This document shows positions 16,950-22,662 of a stretch of 42,714 nucleotides of DNA, one piece after another. The first letter of the stretch is position 1, and each line of letters begins with the position of its first letter. Source of the DNA: Gemmataceae bacterium (GTDB lineage Bacteria; Planctomycetota; Planctomycetia; Gemmatales; Gemmataceae); NCBI GenBank assembly GCA_026419115.1, contig JAOAAA010000016.1, positions 1-42,714 of the forward strand, written 5' to 3'. The notes beneath the pieces are model-generated. The model was not told the DNA's origin, made no database searches, and was given only the letters and a program-made list of their open reading frames with translations. The position numbers and the translations under genes were made by a program.

Positions 16950-17180
16950 ATCTAAAAAAATCTCGGCGATTCCGAAGTTCGACGGGAAACTAGCCTTGTT
17001 TCCCCAAGGTCATGACCGAGGGCATCTGAAAAAATCTCGGCGATTCCGAGGTTCGATAGGATACTGGCGCAAACGGAGAGGTGTAAAACCAATTAGACCT
17101 CTGAAACGAGCTAACTGATCACGAGATGGCGGTGGCACCACAAAACGGAGAAGTGTAAGACCAATTAGACCTCCGAAACG
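16950..17180. repeat. Two direct-repeat pairs, one copying the end of the PhnD-like gene
   Basis: Pair 1: about 40 bases at 16950-16990 recur at 17024-17064 (core AATCTCGGCGATTCCGA), an offset of 74. Pair 2: 38 bases at 17071-17108 recur at 17143-17180 with 3 mismatches (core CCAATTAGACCT), an offset of 72. The second copy of pair 2 covers the stop codon and last codons of the gene ending at 17165, so the first copy is a duplicate of that gene's 3' end lying downstream of it. The gap 16885-17164 holds no gene. Confidence 0.75.
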
Positions 17181-17998
17181 TTAAGGGATATTTTTTGTTG
17201 TTCGACTGCCTCAAACAGGCTGGCATAGCCTCGGAGTCTTTCCCGTGTGGCCGGAAGCCATTCTTTCACCCCTTCCATTTCCATTAAGGGGCGCCAACGC
17301 GGATCGCTGTTTTTCATCGCAAGAAGGGATTCCACCCAGACTTTCGCTAAGCTCTCGGGAAAGTCGGCCAAGGCTGTGAACACACAATGGCAATAGCTGG
17401 GGGAGCGCCACAAGGCCACAAATTTTTCGGGATCGATTTTCCCTTCACTCACCCATTTTTGCCAAGTCAGTTCGGCGACGGCAACGGCTTGGGCCTGACC
17501 CGATAACAAAGCCTCGATGGCGTTCGTTTCGCTTGTCCCAGTATCACCATGTTTACCCACATCGACGTTAAAGCGGAGCAGTTTGCAATCTCGATCGGGT
17601 TGAAGATGAGCTTGTTGTAACCAATAAATCGGAAGGATCGCGGCTTGCACGGAATCGGCCGAGCCAAGGGCCAAGGTTTTCCCTTTCAGGTCTGCTGGAG
17701 AACGAACCGGAGATTCTTTTCGCGAACCGAGCACCGTGTAAAAACAGGCGTCTACATCTCGCATGGCAAGGGCCTTGCAGGTTCCATTGGTCAAGCGATA
17801 GGTTTTAACCCAAGCAAGGTTGGTGTTCCATGCAATATGAATATGCCGGCTCAATAACGATTGAACCAAACGATCATAATTAGAATAGAGTACGAAGTCG
17901 ATGGCAGGGCCAAACTCTCGGAAATACTCCCGCATGGCCTCCCAAATTGGTACACATTTGGCATCGTATGCCACTGCGCCGACGAGAATTTCTGTCAT
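17165..17998 (-). CDS. PhnD/SsuA-type substrate-binding protein without signal peptide
   Basis: This 277-residue protein belongs to the periplasmic-binding-protein-like fold used by phosphonate (PhnD), sulfonate and nitrate uptake systems. It shows the opening ILVGAVAYDAK, the ligand-loop region IHIAWNTNLAWVKTYR, SPADLKGKTLALGSADSVQA at the domain hinge, and SGQAQAVAVAELTW. It starts directly with the first strand, with no signal peptide or lipobox, so it is probably cytoplasmic. That is unusual for an uptake receptor, and no permease or ATPase is nearby. GGA lies 8 bases before the ATG. It is last in the minus-strand unit with the flavoprotein and the sulfur-carrier genes, separated from the flavoprotein gene by 190 bases. 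It may be a sensor or enzyme-like ligand binder. The ligand is unknown. Confidence 0.85.
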   Translation of the reverse strand: MTEILVGAVAYDAKCVPIWEAMREYFREFGPAIDFVLYSNYDRLVQSLLSRHIHIAWNTNLAWVKTYRLTNGTCKALAMRDVDACFYTVLGSRKESPVRSPADLKGKTLALGSADSVQAAILPIYWLQQAHLQPDRDCKLLRFNVDVGKHGDTGTSETNAIEALLSGQAQAVAVAELTWQKWVSEGKIDPEKFVALWRSPSYCHCVFTALADFPESLAKVWVESLLAMKNSDPRWRPLMEMEGVKEWLPATRERLRGYASLFEAVEQQKISLNVSEV

Positions 17999-18188: not shown

Positions 18189-19328
18189 TTAAAATAAAGG
18201 CATGTCTAACAGGGCTTTCCCAATGAAATCCTGAAGGACATCGGTCGTGGGGGCCATTACCCAAGCCGCTCGCGCATCACGGAAATTTCTTTCAACGGTG
18301 AGATGCTTGCTGAAGGCAGCGCCCCCGCAGGTTCGCATGGCCAAATCGGTTAGTTCAAGGGCCATTTCCGAAACGGCGGCCTTGCTTTCGAGAACGGCGA
18401 GCATCACATCGGGGGCATTAGTCTCCATCTTGTGCGCGACCTGTTCGATAAAGGCCAAGTGGGTGTCGTACAGAATTTTCATTCGAGCGAGTCTTCCTCG
18501 GAGGTTCGGCAAGGAAGCCAAATTTTGCCCCAAATGTTCGAGTTTAGAATTGAGTAAATGGGTCCGAGTCGATTCAATCGCAGCGGCACAAATCCCGAGC
18601 GAGACCGAGGCATTTCCCAGTTGGAACCAAGGGAGTACCGAACTCATCATTGAGCCAAAGCCCCCCCCCTCGGGGCTGAGTAATTCATCCACCCCAAGGA
18701 ATACGTTTTCAAGTTTCATCGGCGCACTGGCATTGCCACGAAGACCTAGCCCATTCCAGAGACTGGTTACCGAAACCCCCTCTTGTGTTTTCTCGACGTA
18801 GAACAAATTACTGGTAGTGCCCTCTTTTGCATTGACCGCCTGAGTTGAGACTACATAACTATCGGCATGGCCCGCGCTGGTGACCCATGATTTTTGGGCC
18901 GAGACCGATTGTTTATCTCCTTGAGGCACGGCTTGGCTGACCGGTGCCCAAAAATGGCTCCGTGAACCTTTTTCGCTAAATGCCAATGTGGTGAGGTGAT
19001 TTCCCGAGGCGATTCTTTGCAGAATCTCGTTTCGGCGGGGGAAGGCAGGGGCATCGATAATCACGCGTGTTCCGCAGATGTGCATCAAAAAAATCATTCC
19101 AGTGGAAGCACATTCTTGAGCGATAATACGGGTCACTTTCGCAAATACCGAGGGGCCTGCACCCATGCCACCGAATTCCGTAGGAACGACCAACCCGAGC
19201 AGTTTTGATTGTTTTAGAGCATCGATGGACTCGGCAGGCCAACGACCGTCAGTATCAACTTCGCTTGCATAGCGACGAATGGTTTCGGTTGCAACTTTTT
19301 CAGCCAACGAGACAATATCCACACTCAT
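18189..19328 (-). CDS. Acyl-CoA dehydrogenase-family flavoprotein, atypical active site
   Basis: The 379-residue product has the whole acyl-CoA dehydrogenase fold: an N-terminal helical domain with LGLVVPTEFGGMGAG (about 52-66), a middle beta domain (LTTLAFSEKGSRSHFW; AQKSWVTSAGHADSY), and a C-terminal four-helix domain ending MRTCGGAAFSKHLTVERNFRDARA. In true dehydrogenases the last helix carries a Tyr-Glu-Gly-Thr stretch whose Glu is the base. Here the aligned stretch reads VMAPTTDVLQDFIGK, with no Glu. Flavin monooxygenases of the DszC/SfnC type share this fold without the base. Substrate unknown. The gene sits between the TusA-MetE fusion and the PhnD-like gene, so a role on an organosulfur compound is possible but inferred. 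Confidence 0.85.
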   Translation of the reverse strand: MSVDIVSLAEKVATETIRRYASEVDTDGRWPAESIDALKQSKLLGLVVPTEFGGMGAGPSVFAKVTRIIAQECASTGMIFLMHICGTRVIIDAPAFPRRNEILQRIASGNHLTTLAFSEKGSRSHFWAPVSQAVPQGDKQSVSAQKSWVTSAGHADSYVVSTQAVNAKEGTTSNLFYVEKTQEGVSVTSLWNGLGLRGNASAPMKLENVFLGVDELLSPEGGGFGSMMSSVLPWFQLGNASVSLGICAAAIESTRTHLLNSKLEHLGQNLASLPNLRGRLARMKILYDTHLAFIEQVAHKMETNAPDVMLAVLESKAAVSEMALELTDLAMRTCGGAAFSKHLTVERNFRDARAAWVMAPTTDVLQDFIGKALLDMPLF

Positions 19329-19414: not shown

Positions 19415-20932
19415 TTAAGAAATCGAGTATCTTGAACGAAGAATTTTCGCAGCTTCAACGATATTAGCCAGCTTTGCCTCGGCGATTTCTGCAGAAGCAA
19501 TGGGGTTATCCGCAAAGGTAGCAAAGCCACAATCGGGATTGAGAAGCAATCGTTCGGGGCCAAAAATCGCGAGGGCTTTTTCGGCTTTCTGAACAATTTC
19601 CTCTACCGTCTCGACACGATCTTCTTTTTGGTTGACGACCCCTAGGCCTATCCGACTATTAGCAGGGAGTTCTTTAAGTACATCCAATTCGCCTGCTCGC
19701 GGGGTGGCCATTTCTAAGAAATAAGTCCCTACCGGAATGGCCTGTAGCAATCCGAGTAAGGGGGTATACGGGCCGGTTAAAGCAACCCGTTCATCTTTGG
19801 TCCAGTTTCCACGGCAAATGTGGAGGGCTAATCGTTCTTGAGGAAATCCCTTGAGGGTTTGGCTCAGTAAATGTTGAGCAAAGGCTAATTCTTGTTCAGG
19901 CGGGCGTTTTTCTCCCAAAGCCCCGCACATAAAAGTTCGCCCACTGGTAGGGCGTGTGAAAACCACTTCCGTAAGAACGGGTTCATCCAATTGGACTAAA
20001 CTGGTGCCGGCATTGAGTAGAGCTTCTATCTCATCACGAAGAACAGTGACAAGATCGGCAGCGAGTTCTTCTCGATTCGGATACGCCCGATCCGAAACGC
20101 ATTCCAACCACATGGTTCGGGTTAGTAAATAAGGTCCCGGTAATGCGATTTTGATGGGTTTCTCGGTGATTCGTTGTAAGCGGGTCAACTCGTGAACGGT
20201 CAAGGGGCGATTTCGTTCGATCCGACCAAAAACGGCCGGATGCCGGACCTGTTCCGCAGGAACATCGAGGGATTCGAGTTCCCGAGCAAAATGTTCCGGA
20301 TCATCGACATAAGGGAGCAAATCGGTGATGGGAATGAGCTGGCAATTATCAAGGCGATTGCCTACGAAACTGGCGTAATTGTCGCGACGTTGTTCTCCGT
20401 CGGTAATGACATCGACACCCGCGCGCTCTTGTGCAGCGACCACCAAGCGAACCGCATCATCGGCATACTGTTGAAATTGCTCTTCCGAAAGGCGATTCGA
20501 CAACCGATTATGCAGAGCTTCCAACAACCAACGGGGTCTAGGCCAACTGCCAATACCCATCACGGATAAAGGGGGAATCGGTTGCGGCCCTTTGGGGGGG
20601 GGCGTTGTCCTAGAAGGAGAAGGTTGGGTTGCTGCTTTTAAGGGCACGGGTTCCGTTTGCTTTTGAGCAGGGAGGAAAGGCCCCTTCGAGATGAGGAAAC
20701 TCCGGAGATTTCCCTGACGGGTCGCCGAGACCAATTCATTTTTGGTCAGGCGGCACCAAGCAGGAAGTTCCACTTCAACTGTGGCATCAGTCGAGCGAAT
20801 TTCCAGCAATTCACTGGGGTTCAAGGGATCAATATGCTTCCGAATCAGCAAAAGCAGACCATTCCCGCAAGTGAGATCGCCTCCATCGAAAGAGACCTTG
20901 GGGGTGTGCGAATGTTGAGTGGCCCAGTCCAT
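19415..20932 (-). CDS. TusA-like domain fused to core methionine synthase (MetE C-terminal type)
   Basis: The 505-residue protein has two parts joined by a Pro-rich linker (about 86-120). Residues about 12-84 are a TusA/SirA-like domain with Cys22 in DLTCGNGLLLLIRK and a second Cys60 in LPAWCRL. The usual Cys-Pro is Cys-Gly here. Residues about 121-505 match the catalytic half of cobalamin-independent methionine synthase, with MGIGSWPRPRWL at the start. The zinc ligands of MetE appear to be present as His and Cys in ALHICRGNW, Glu in YFLEMATP, and Cys in LLNPDCGF. The N-terminal half of full-length MetE (about 750 residues) is absent, as in folate-independent core-MetE families. It probably methylates homocysteine, or uses a thiol or persulfide, from an unknown methyl donor. 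It lies 34 bases after the DsrE gene. Confidence 0.88.
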   Translation of the reverse strand: MDWATQHSHTPKVSFDGGDLTCGNGLLLLIRKHIDPLNPSELLEIRSTDATVEVELPAWCRLTKNELVSATRQGNLRSFLISKGPFLPAQKQTEPVPLKAATQPSPSRTTPPPKGPQPIPPLSVMGIGSWPRPRWLLEALHNRLSNRLSEEQFQQYADDAVRLVVAAQERAGVDVITDGEQRRDNYASFVGNRLDNCQLIPITDLLPYVDDPEHFARELESLDVPAEQVRHPAVFGRIERNRPLTVHELTRLQRITEKPIKIALPGPYLLTRTMWLECVSDRAYPNREELAADLVTVLRDEIEALLNAGTSLVQLDEPVLTEVVFTRPTSGRTFMCGALGEKRPPEQELAFAQHLLSQTLKGFPQERLALHICRGNWTKDERVALTGPYTPLLGLLQAIPVGTYFLEMATPRAGELDVLKELPANSRIGLGVVNQKEDRVETVEEIVQKAEKALAIFGPERLLLNPDCGFATFADNPIASAEIAEAKLANIVEAAKILRSRYSIS

Positions 20933-20966: not shown

Positions 20967-21329
20967 CTAGTAGGTCACACTGGGGCATGAATCGCCCATG
21001 AACTCGACGAGTTTGGCACCTCCTACAATCATCGCACCTGCCACGAGGTTGTTTTCATCGAGTTGACGTTTTTTGAAGCAGGGGGAGCAAACATAAATTT
21101 TCCCACCTGCGTTCACAAAGTTGGTCATGAGGTCCTTCAGGGGGGAAAAGCCCGCCTCGGCAATATCGTCGGCGTAGCCTTTGACCGCGAGTCGAACCCC
21201 TTCGATACTCAAGAAAACGATCGCTTCCTTATCTGAGGCCGCAGCGGCATTGGCCACGACAAAGCCAACCGTAGCTTTATCCGGATTATCCTTAGCGGAA
21301 GTAATACTCACGCAGAATTTACCAGCCAT
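20967..21329 (-). CDS. DsrE-family sulfur-relay protein
   Basis: From the ATG at 21329, with GAGGAG 7 bases upstream, this is a 120-residue protein (an upstream in-frame start would overlap the previous gene and is not needed). The fold fits the DsrE/DsrF/peroxiredoxin-like family. It has an N-terminal strand KFCVSITS, a central helix, EAIVFLSIEGVRLAVKG, and a CxxC motif at C81 and C84 in YVCSPCFKKRQL. The ending AGAMIVGGAKLVEFMGDS is characteristic. Such proteins carry persulfide or act as reductases in sulfur relays. The start lies 2 bases after the stop of the TusA-like gene, and its ribosome binding site is inside that gene's last codons, which means tight coupling. Confidence 0.92.
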   Translation of the reverse strand: MAGKFCVSITSAKDNPDKATVGFVVANAAAASDKEAIVFLSIEGVRLAVKGYADDIAEAGFSPLKDLMTNFVNAGGKIYVCSPCFKKRQLDENNLVAGAMIVGGAKLVEFMGDSCPSVTY

Positions 21330-21331
21330 GT

Positions 21332-21568
21332 TTATTCTCCTCTGCGACGAATCCAATAATTCGGGTGATGGTGTGCGATCAACTGGTGTCCTGTCATTCG
21401 GCACCAAGCCGGAATGTCCTCGATTGCACCTTCATCTTGTGCAATTAATTTCAAGACGGCGCTGGGACGCATATTATTCAGACGAATTCTTAGGAGCATG
21501 ACTAATTCTCCGCATCCCATCATACCGGCATCCCAAATTTCGTCTGGATTGATAATCGATTCGTTCAT
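21332..21568 (-). CDS. TusA/SirA-like sulfur-carrier protein
   Basis: This 78-residue single-domain protein resembles the N-terminal domain of the MetE fusion two genes downstream. The shared pattern is a Cys-Gly at the active turn (Cys19 in WDAGMMGCGELVMLLRIR), a hydrophobic strand, an Asp/Glu turn, and the motif IPAWCRMTGHQLI with a second Cys56. TusA proteins carry sulfur as a persulfide on the first Cys. The usual Cys-Pro-x-Pro motif is Cys-Gly here, so it is a divergent member. It heads a minus-strand unit of five genes and its promoter should lie in the divergent region before bioB. It has no signal peptide. Confidence 0.88.
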   Translation of the reverse strand: MNESIINPDEIWDAGMMGCGELVMLLRIRLNNMRPSAVLKLIAQDEGAIEDIPAWCRMTGHQLIAHHHPNYWIRRRGE

Positions 21569-21631: not shown

Positions 21632-21723
21632 GGGAATTTATTCGGAGGGTGATTGTTGGCGATCTTTTGGAGAGTCTAGGGCTTCATCTTGCTTTTTATT
21701 TCGAGAGTATTTACAAAGGATTT

Positions 21724-22662
21724 ATGAAAACTCTCGCTGAATTTCAATCGGTTTATAATCTCCCGTTGATGGAATTGATCCTCAAAGCGGCCGAGGTCCA
21801 CAAAGCGAATCGGCAGGCTAATGATATTCAACGCTGTGCCCTTTTGAGTATCAAAACGGGGGGATGTCCCGAAGATTGCAAATACTGCTCGCAGTCGGCC
21901 CATTACGATACCCCTGTGGAACGCCAACCTTTGATGAGCGTCGAAGAAGTGAAGCTCCGTGCAAAGGAAGCACGCGATCGGGGGGCAACCCGTTTTTGTA
22001 TGGGGGCAGCGTGGCGGTCTCCCAAGGATGGTCCGCAGTTCGATGAAGTCTTGCAGATGGTCCGCGAGGTTCGTCAACTAGGTATGGAGGCCTGTGTGAC
22101 CTTGGGGATGCTGACCGAGGAACAATCGCTGCGCCTCAAAGAAGCGGGGCTAACTGCCTACAACCATAACCTTGACACCTCTAGGCGATTTTATCCCGAA
22201 ATTATTACGACCCGAACCTTCGATGATCGCATCCAGACACTCAAAGCGGTTGCGAAAGCGGGTATCTCGGTCTGTAGTGGCGGCATCATTGGGATGGGGG
22301 AAACCGTCGAAGATCGTTTAATGATGCTTGTCGAGTTAGCGAACTTGGAAACCCCGCCCGAGAGCGTGCCGATCAACGTGCTGATGCCACAACAGGGAAC
22401 ACCCCTCCAAATGGCGCCGACGGTCGATTCCTTGGAATTAATTCGCCTGATTGCCACAACACGGATTGCGTTTCCAAAAGCCCGTGTTCGACTGAGTGCC
22501 GGACGCGATAAAATGTCTCGGGAAACTCAAATTCTCTGTTTCCTAGCGGGGGCCGATTCGGTCTTCTATGGTGAAAAACTCCTCACGGCACCAAACCCCG
22601 ATAGCGATGCCGATGCCCAGCTTTTCCGCGAGTTAGGGCTTCCGATTCCGAGCAGTTGTTAG
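21724..22662 (+). CDS. bioB: Biotin synthase
   Basis: This is a radical-SAM enzyme that inserts sulfur into dethiobiotin to form biotin, using a [4Fe-4S] SAM cluster and a sacrificial [2Fe-2S] cluster. The ATG at 21724 is chosen because AAAGGA lies just upstream and the next in-frame ATG upstream (21649) adds a non-conserved stretch. The product is 312 residues. The radical-SAM cysteines are C48, C52 and C55 in GGCPEDCKYCSQS. Other BioB blocks are FCMGAAWRSPKDG, YNHNLDTS, SVCSGGIIGMGE, PINVLMPQQGTPL and the late RLSAGRDKMS. All key residues are present. No other biotin gene is adjacent. It is divergent from the sulfur-carrier unit. Confidence 0.97.
   Translation: MKTLAEFQSVYNLPLMELILKAAEVHKANRQANDIQRCALLSIKTGGCPEDCKYCSQSAHYDTPVERQPLMSVEEVKLRAKEARDRGATRFCMGAAWRSPKDGPQFDEVLQMVREVRQLGMEACVTLGMLTEEQSLRLKEAGLTAYNHNLDTSRRFYPEIITTRTFDDRIQTLKAVAKAGISVCSGGIIGMGETVEDRLMMLVELANLETPPESVPINVLMPQQGTPLQMAPTVDSLELIRLIATTRIAFPKARVRLSAGRDKMSRETQILCFLAGADSVFYGEKLLTAPNPDSDADAQLFRELGLPIPSSC

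Follow-up and report, generated by a model that had tools for sequence, protein, structure and literature searches.

A gene in a 42,714-nucleotide stretch of a Gemmataceae genome (contig JAOAAA010000016.1; the whole stretch is referred to here as the window) encodes a TusA-like domain fused to a MetE-like catalytic core, and its product probably acts in a selenium-handling pathway not yet described, instead of serving as an ordinary methionine synthase. This reading is drawn from sequence comparisons and rests on an intact zinc/homocysteine site, an extra cysteine position that is read as selenocysteine (Sec) in several relatives, sulfur- or selenium-carrier proteins that are adjacent to the core or fused to it, and the near restriction of the family to selenium-using genomes. 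The broader proposition, that the family comprises MetE-like enzymes of a selenium/sulfur relay, appears likely. No description of the fusion, its cassette or a MetE-like selenoprotein was found in the open-access literature.

Domain organization of the fusion protein

The first-pass annotation had described one polypeptide in which a Pro-rich linker joins a sulfur-carrier domain to a MetE core with intact zinc ligands and no folate-binding N-terminal half, and closer analysis bears this out (Table 1). The protein is encoded by a single open reading frame, its catalytic part matches Meth_synt_2 (PF01717; 1.3e-35) and residues 1–122 consist of the TusA domain and the linker, so that only the catalytic half of a full-length MetE (folate half plus catalytic half) is present. 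The Pfam match to TusA (PF01206; 6.6e-6) covers residues 27–83 and, at 26.3 bits, lies below the cut-off of 28.6 bits that the stand-alone TusA1 exceeds; residues 10–84 also match PDB entries of TusA/YhhP (E = 0.003). Cys22 aligns with the active-site cysteine of TusA. The sequence family and this cysteine are shared with Escherichia coli TusA, whereas the fused domain has CGNG (CGxG) in place of the usual CPxP, glycine replacing proline, and is joined to MetE.

The homocysteine-binding residues Ser129, Glu180 and Asp316 (Ser433, Glu484 and Asp599 in E. coli MetE) and the zinc ligands His371, Cys373, Glu407 and Cys468 (His641, Cys643, Glu665 and Cys726) are all intact, giving the full set expected of a MetE/Mes catalytic core (zinc H, C, E/D, C; homocysteine S, E/Q, D), and both sets are invariant in the alignment of all complete relatives scoring above 400 bits. 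The best curated models for the fusion are methionine synthases, every one of them below its cut-off. Such a site and such models would suit a core methionine synthase of the ordinary sort, which would make a fifth family of the Mes type in which zinc-bound homocysteine is methylated by some donor and the TusA domain serves regulation or docking. Against this, the protein has no folate domain, and neither a corrinoid protein nor MesX (DUF1852) was noticed in the neighbourhoods of the family.

Table 1. Features of the fusion gene and its neighbours, numbered from the first nucleotide of the window
Feature	Position	Strand	Details
TusA2::MetE-core fusion	19415..20932	minus	505 aa, ATG start, one ORF
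TusA2 domain	20684..20905	minus	residues 10–83 (about 10–84), DLTCGNGLLLLIRK..., CG replaces CP
Pro-rich linker	20567..20671	minus	about residues 88–122
MetE-like catalytic core	19418..20578	minus	about residues 123–505
Cys22 codon	20869-20867	minus	
Cys336 codon	19927-19925	minus	Sec position in relatives
Zinc-ligand codons	H371 19822-19820; C373 19816-19814; E407 19714-19712; C468 19531-19529	minus	
dsrE, DsrE/DsrF family	20967..21329	minus	120 aa from ATG at 21329; PF02635 1.7e-16
tusA1, stand-alone TusA-like	21332..21568	minus	78 aa, motif DAGMMGCGELV; PF01206 41.9 bits, above cut-off
Acyl-CoA-dehydrogenase-family flavoprotein	18189..19328	minus	nearest Rv1679 (FadE16) family; NF049984 455 bits, cut-off 600
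Rv1680-like substrate-binding-fold protein	17165..17998	minus	PF12974 4e-33; NF049985 329 bits, cut-off 400

Gene context and relatives

The fusion occupies third place in a conserved cassette with the order tusA1–dsrE–tusA2::metE. The mechanical reading frame of dsrE extends to 21407, and the ATG was taken as the start. At 78 residues tusA1 falls below the 80-residue limit of the list of open reading frames and was therefore missed at the first stage; the first-pass annotation could see neither tusA1 and dsrE as separate upstream genes nor the additional Cys/Sec position, and the tie to the downstream genes was likewise beyond it. A biotin synthase gene, bioB (21649-22662, plus strand), diverges just upstream of tusA1 and shows no sign of belonging to the cassette.

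The 33 fused sequences all fall in one clade (support 100/100), so that the tree points to a single origin of the fusion. The 30-odd other independent fused loci and the single clade rule out a chance, frame or assembly artefact. The cassette order recurs in nearly all relatives with a long enough contig; its hosts include Gemmataceae, Pirellulaceae, other Planctomycetota, metagenome-assembled genomes of Myxococcota, Armatimonadota and Oxalobacteraceae, and Paracoccus. The core profile matched 54 of 392 genomes of the phylum of the window (50 strong members) and two of 398 in a Bacillota sample.

The gene contexts of the family fall into four classes. Class A is the fusion cassette itself, with dsrE immediately upstream of the fusion in nearly all loci of sufficient length. 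In class B ([transglutaminase-like]-tusA1-dsrE-tusA2::osmC-metE) TusA2 is fused instead to an OsmC-like domain. Class C (osmC-sbp-metE-acd) contains the same Rv1680-like and FadE16-like genes as are found downstream of the window fusion, and in the Bacillota (class D) a gene for a YedF C-terminal domain stands directly upstream of metE, its place being taken in one genome (G251) by a rhodanese gene that overlaps the metE start. The dedicated YedF C-terminal protein occurs in four Bacillota relatives (selenium_YedF C-terminal domain, 106 bits, cut-off 110). In Facklamia a second gene of this kind lies between selD and selB (L131 18143-18496; L133 6154-6492), which makes the copy beside metE a dedicated paralogue. 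An IscS/NifS-like cysteine desulfurase gene immediately follows metE in G439. TusA, DsrE, rhodaneses and cysteine desulfurases carry or make persulfide or perselenide, and the partner types TusA, DsrE, YedF C-terminal domain, rhodanese and cysteine desulfurase are carriers or sources of persulfide or selenide; the other partners are OsmC, the acyl-CoA-dehydrogenase-like flavoprotein and the Rv1680-like protein, the latter two being present in the window as well.

Three Paracoccus plasmids bear the enzyme, and on the two that were examined the genes for SufS, TusA1, DsrE, the fusion, SelA and TrxB lie together, with selA next to the fusion, the SelA being genuine (565 bits, cut-off 268). At one Paracoccus locus (L119 6505-8586) two genes encoding proteins of 168 and 522 residues with no Pfam match separate dsrE from the fusion, and the longer product has a signal-peptide-like start. 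In Planctomycetota and Paracoccus the cassette is repeatedly accompanied by a gene for a transglutaminase-like protein whose start resembles that of a secreted protein or lipoprotein (L013, L040, L049, L066-L068, L072, L073, L078-L081, L085; L119 3121-4227).

The functional tie between the carrier domain and the MetE core that was proposed at the outset is supported by the conserved gene order and by the unfused versions with the same partners. A fully active homologue without TusA had been named beforehand as a possible refutation. Homologues whose MetE polypeptide has no TusA domain do exist (classes B, C and D); the force of that test is blunted, as class B has a neighbouring TusA gene and class D a YedF-type or rhodanese gene. 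YedF itself (SirA/TusA plus DsrE; TIGR03527; PMC5322559) resembles the cassette in combining TusA and DsrE parts in selenium users, but is one protein with a TusA CPxP followed by a DsrE CGxC; in the window the two are separate genes, with a second TusA fused to the MetE core and CP changed to CG, and the Bacillota relatives have the C-terminal part alone.

The flavoprotein and Rv1680-like genes were first held to be chance neighbours, since other class A loci lack them, a view overturned by class C and by locus L068. In class C the flavoprotein gene type lies beside an unfused metE and the Rv1680-like type immediately upstream of it, so that the window locus combines class A with the class C gene pair; at L068, which belongs to class B, that pair is found about 5 kb from the cassette. 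Judged by eye, the Rv1680-like protein of the window has no evident signal peptide. The mycobacterial Rv1679-Rv1680-Rv1681-type cluster likewise places a flavoprotein beside an Rv1680-like protein, but the Mycolicibacterium example has a radical SAM protein and no MetE-like gene. No function for Rv1679, Rv1680 or MoeX was given in the literature found, and a search of the phylum with NF049973 was swamped by other radical SAM proteins. The N-terminus of Rv1681 was considered as a TusA domain and set aside as weak (NCBIfam E = 0.005, hhalign probability 32%, no cysteine). On a Miltoncostaea oceani plasmid (L118) a stretch of 6-7 kb, holding radical SAM, DUF2064 and glycosyltransferase genes, separates selD from genes of the FadE16-like and Rv1680-like types.

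An additional cysteine/selenocysteine position

Beyond the zinc and homocysteine residues, one further position, Cys336 in the motif [ST]F[MY]C[GA].L, is invariant in all complete members, being either Cys or an in-frame TGA. The TGA falls exactly in this column at seven loci from Bacillota and Planctomycetota: two Facklamia species, Companilactobacillus, Atopobacter, G251, and L067 and L068, the last two from the phylum of the window. The frame stays open past the TGA to the end of the gene, with the zinc ligands downstream of it, and substitutions after the TGA concentrate at third codon positions in the same pattern as before it. ARAGORN detected tRNA-Sec in six of these genomes; the seventh, G584, in which no selC was found, has SelA. 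The in-frame TGA, the continued reading and the tRNA-Sec genes together indicate a Cys/Sec position. An in-frame TGA aligned with the cysteine of homologues, the mark of a selenoprotein, is thus a property of the relatives and not of the window protein.

The two Sec-bearing groups are separate in the tree, and the majority of members have Cys at the position, some in genomes where no selC was found. A bSECIS-like hairpin such as GGUCAAGGUUGACC follows the TGA at about +20 in the Bacillota, with folding-energy z-scores that are not significant, and an Rfam scan of the TGA loci gave no matches. MetE structures aligned through the Cys336 stretch show no matching cysteine, the alignments being weak there. 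Where Sec and Cys replace each other at a single site, the residue is usually catalytic or redox-active (PMC9312934). No MetE-like entry appears in the 2022 table of prokaryotic selenoproteins (PMC9312934), and a term search of a 2026 review (PMC13188914) retrieved none; the Sec forms, as predicted from their genes, seem to be a selenoprotein family that has not been listed. Genes of this kind are split at the TGA by ordinary gene calling, as happened in the present data.

A YxjG-like MetE paralogue (L084 5464-6561, minus strand) has an in-frame TGA exactly at the zinc-ligand cysteine equivalent to E. coli Cys643. It is a single case, in a genome (G562) with SelA and tRNA-Sec; the TGA could mean that Sec binds the zinc there, or it could stem from an error in sequencing.

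Association with selenium metabolism

Among the 392 genomes examined from the phylum, 48 of the 50 that carry the family encode SelA, against 194 of the 342 that do not carry it (odds ratio 18, p = 3e-9). Counted by taxonomic family, the only level at which kinship is allowed for, the figures are 25/25 and 56/76 (p = 0.0016). SelA is common in the phylum (62%), and the two carriers without it are draft genomes, with completeness of 77% and 91%. Both SelA (C304) and SelD (C290) are encoded in the window genome; selC was not found in this assembly (92% complete, 323 contigs), where the best match, at 45 bits, is a tRNA-Ser. Adjacency of the cassette to sel genes was not seen outside Paracoccus.

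MetH and MetF are both encoded in the window genome, so that methionine need not depend on the fusion there, and MetH occurs in three of four other fusion-, B- or C-class genomes tested. In Facklamia (G001) the enzyme is present and neither MetH nor MTHFR was found. These observations, together with the way the distribution of the family follows selenium use, make the earlier label of core methionine synthase doubtful, and a housekeeping role loses weight where MetH and MetF are encoded alongside the fusion. As an ordinary synthase would also leave the extra Cys/Sec and the selenium distribution unexplained, we regard that alternative as improbable.

A sulfur relay enzyme, in which TusA and DsrE deliver or take sulfane sulfur at the zinc/Cys336 site (for example in building homocysteine or recycling methanethiol) and selenium users merely run active chalcogen relays, would fit the fact that every partner handles sulfur too, and the prevalence of Cys at position 336 even where selC was not found. 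It accounts poorly for SelA in nearly all carriers, for Sec at the extra position and for the YedF and SelA neighbours, and we consider it rather unlikely.

Comparison with known systems and proposed role

The core methionine synthases MesA–MesD (PMC7857596) resemble the present family in having a MetE barrel without a folate domain, HCEC zinc ligands and S/E/D homocysteine residues. They differ in that the present family has the extra invariant Cys/Sec and TusA, DsrE, YedF and OsmC partners and tracks SelA, with no CoFeSP or MesX noticed in its neighbourhoods; TusA, sulfur carriers and Planctomycetes are not mentioned in that paper (PMC7857596). MesD is defined by at least 390 bits to a known MesD and an adjacent DUF1852 (MesX) gene (PMC7857596), while the fusion scores 76 bits against the MesD structure 3rpd and has no DUF1852 neighbour in the window. 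For MesB the definition is at least 130 bits to DET0516 with the CoFeSP genes AcsC/D in the genome, and no acsC or acsD neighbour of the fusion was noticed.

The proposed job is closest to that of the Type 1 mlp/Sdm corrinoid methyl-selenide clusters, namely recovery of selenide from methylated selenium (PMC10418091, PMC11097638), but those use corrinoid proteins, none of which was seen here, and homocysteine is the presumed acceptor in the present case. Methylation of selenide by SAM can proceed non-enzymatically, and corrinoid enzymes recover selenide from methyl-selenide (Kountz and Balskus, PMC10418091).

The mlp/Sdm methyltransferases belong to the wider MetE/UROD kind, and MetE activates homocysteine as a zinc thiolate. 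Methylselenol, or another compound with methylated selenium (or sulfur), might be held at Cys336 or Sec as E-S-Se-CH3, where attack of zinc-activated homocysteine on the methyl group would yield methionine and leave a perselenide, E-S-Se(-). The TusA domain, being part of the same chain, could then take the chalcogen from Cys336 through Cys22 and pass it via DsrE and TusA1 towards the selenophosphate pathway (SelD/SelA), the overall result being a corrinoid-free recovery of selenium lost by methylation. Such a scheme would explain the core components of the system. More speculatively, preparation of the substrate may fall to the flavoprotein and the Rv1680-like protein.

Taken as a whole, a zinc/homocysteine enzyme of the MetE type, coupled to a relay of persulfide or perselenide and serving selenium (perhaps also sulfur) metabolism over bulk methionine, demethylation included, has in our estimate somewhat under an even chance of being correct. 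Demethylation of methylated selenium, considered by itself, is a tentative suggestion. Equally tentative is the specific scheme of corrinoid-free salvage, in which the Cys/Sec MetE-like family and its TusA/DsrE/YedF carriers would transfer the methyl group of methylselenol, or of a related compound, to homocysteine and hand the perselenide directly to the carrier, the Sec forms constituting a selenoprotein family not found in the 2022 overview or, by term search, in that of 2026. The same list of parts might serve the reverse direction, selenium detoxification, with excess selenide on TusA methylated to a volatile product, and OsmC- and AhpD-type redox genes do lie near some members. Pfam found no SAM-binding domain in the fusion protein, and methionine is a poor methyl donor unless activated, which makes detoxification very improbable.

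To our knowledge no reaction has been assigned to YedF and its relatives. The family described here offers a concrete enzyme case, with carrier and catalyst in one polypeptide, that bears on how selenium may be transferred to selenophosphate synthetase without release of toxic selenide and on how selenium lost by methylation may be recovered. Its culturable hosts, Paracoccus versutus, Companilactobacillus versmoldensis and Facklamia, make the family open to direct testing.
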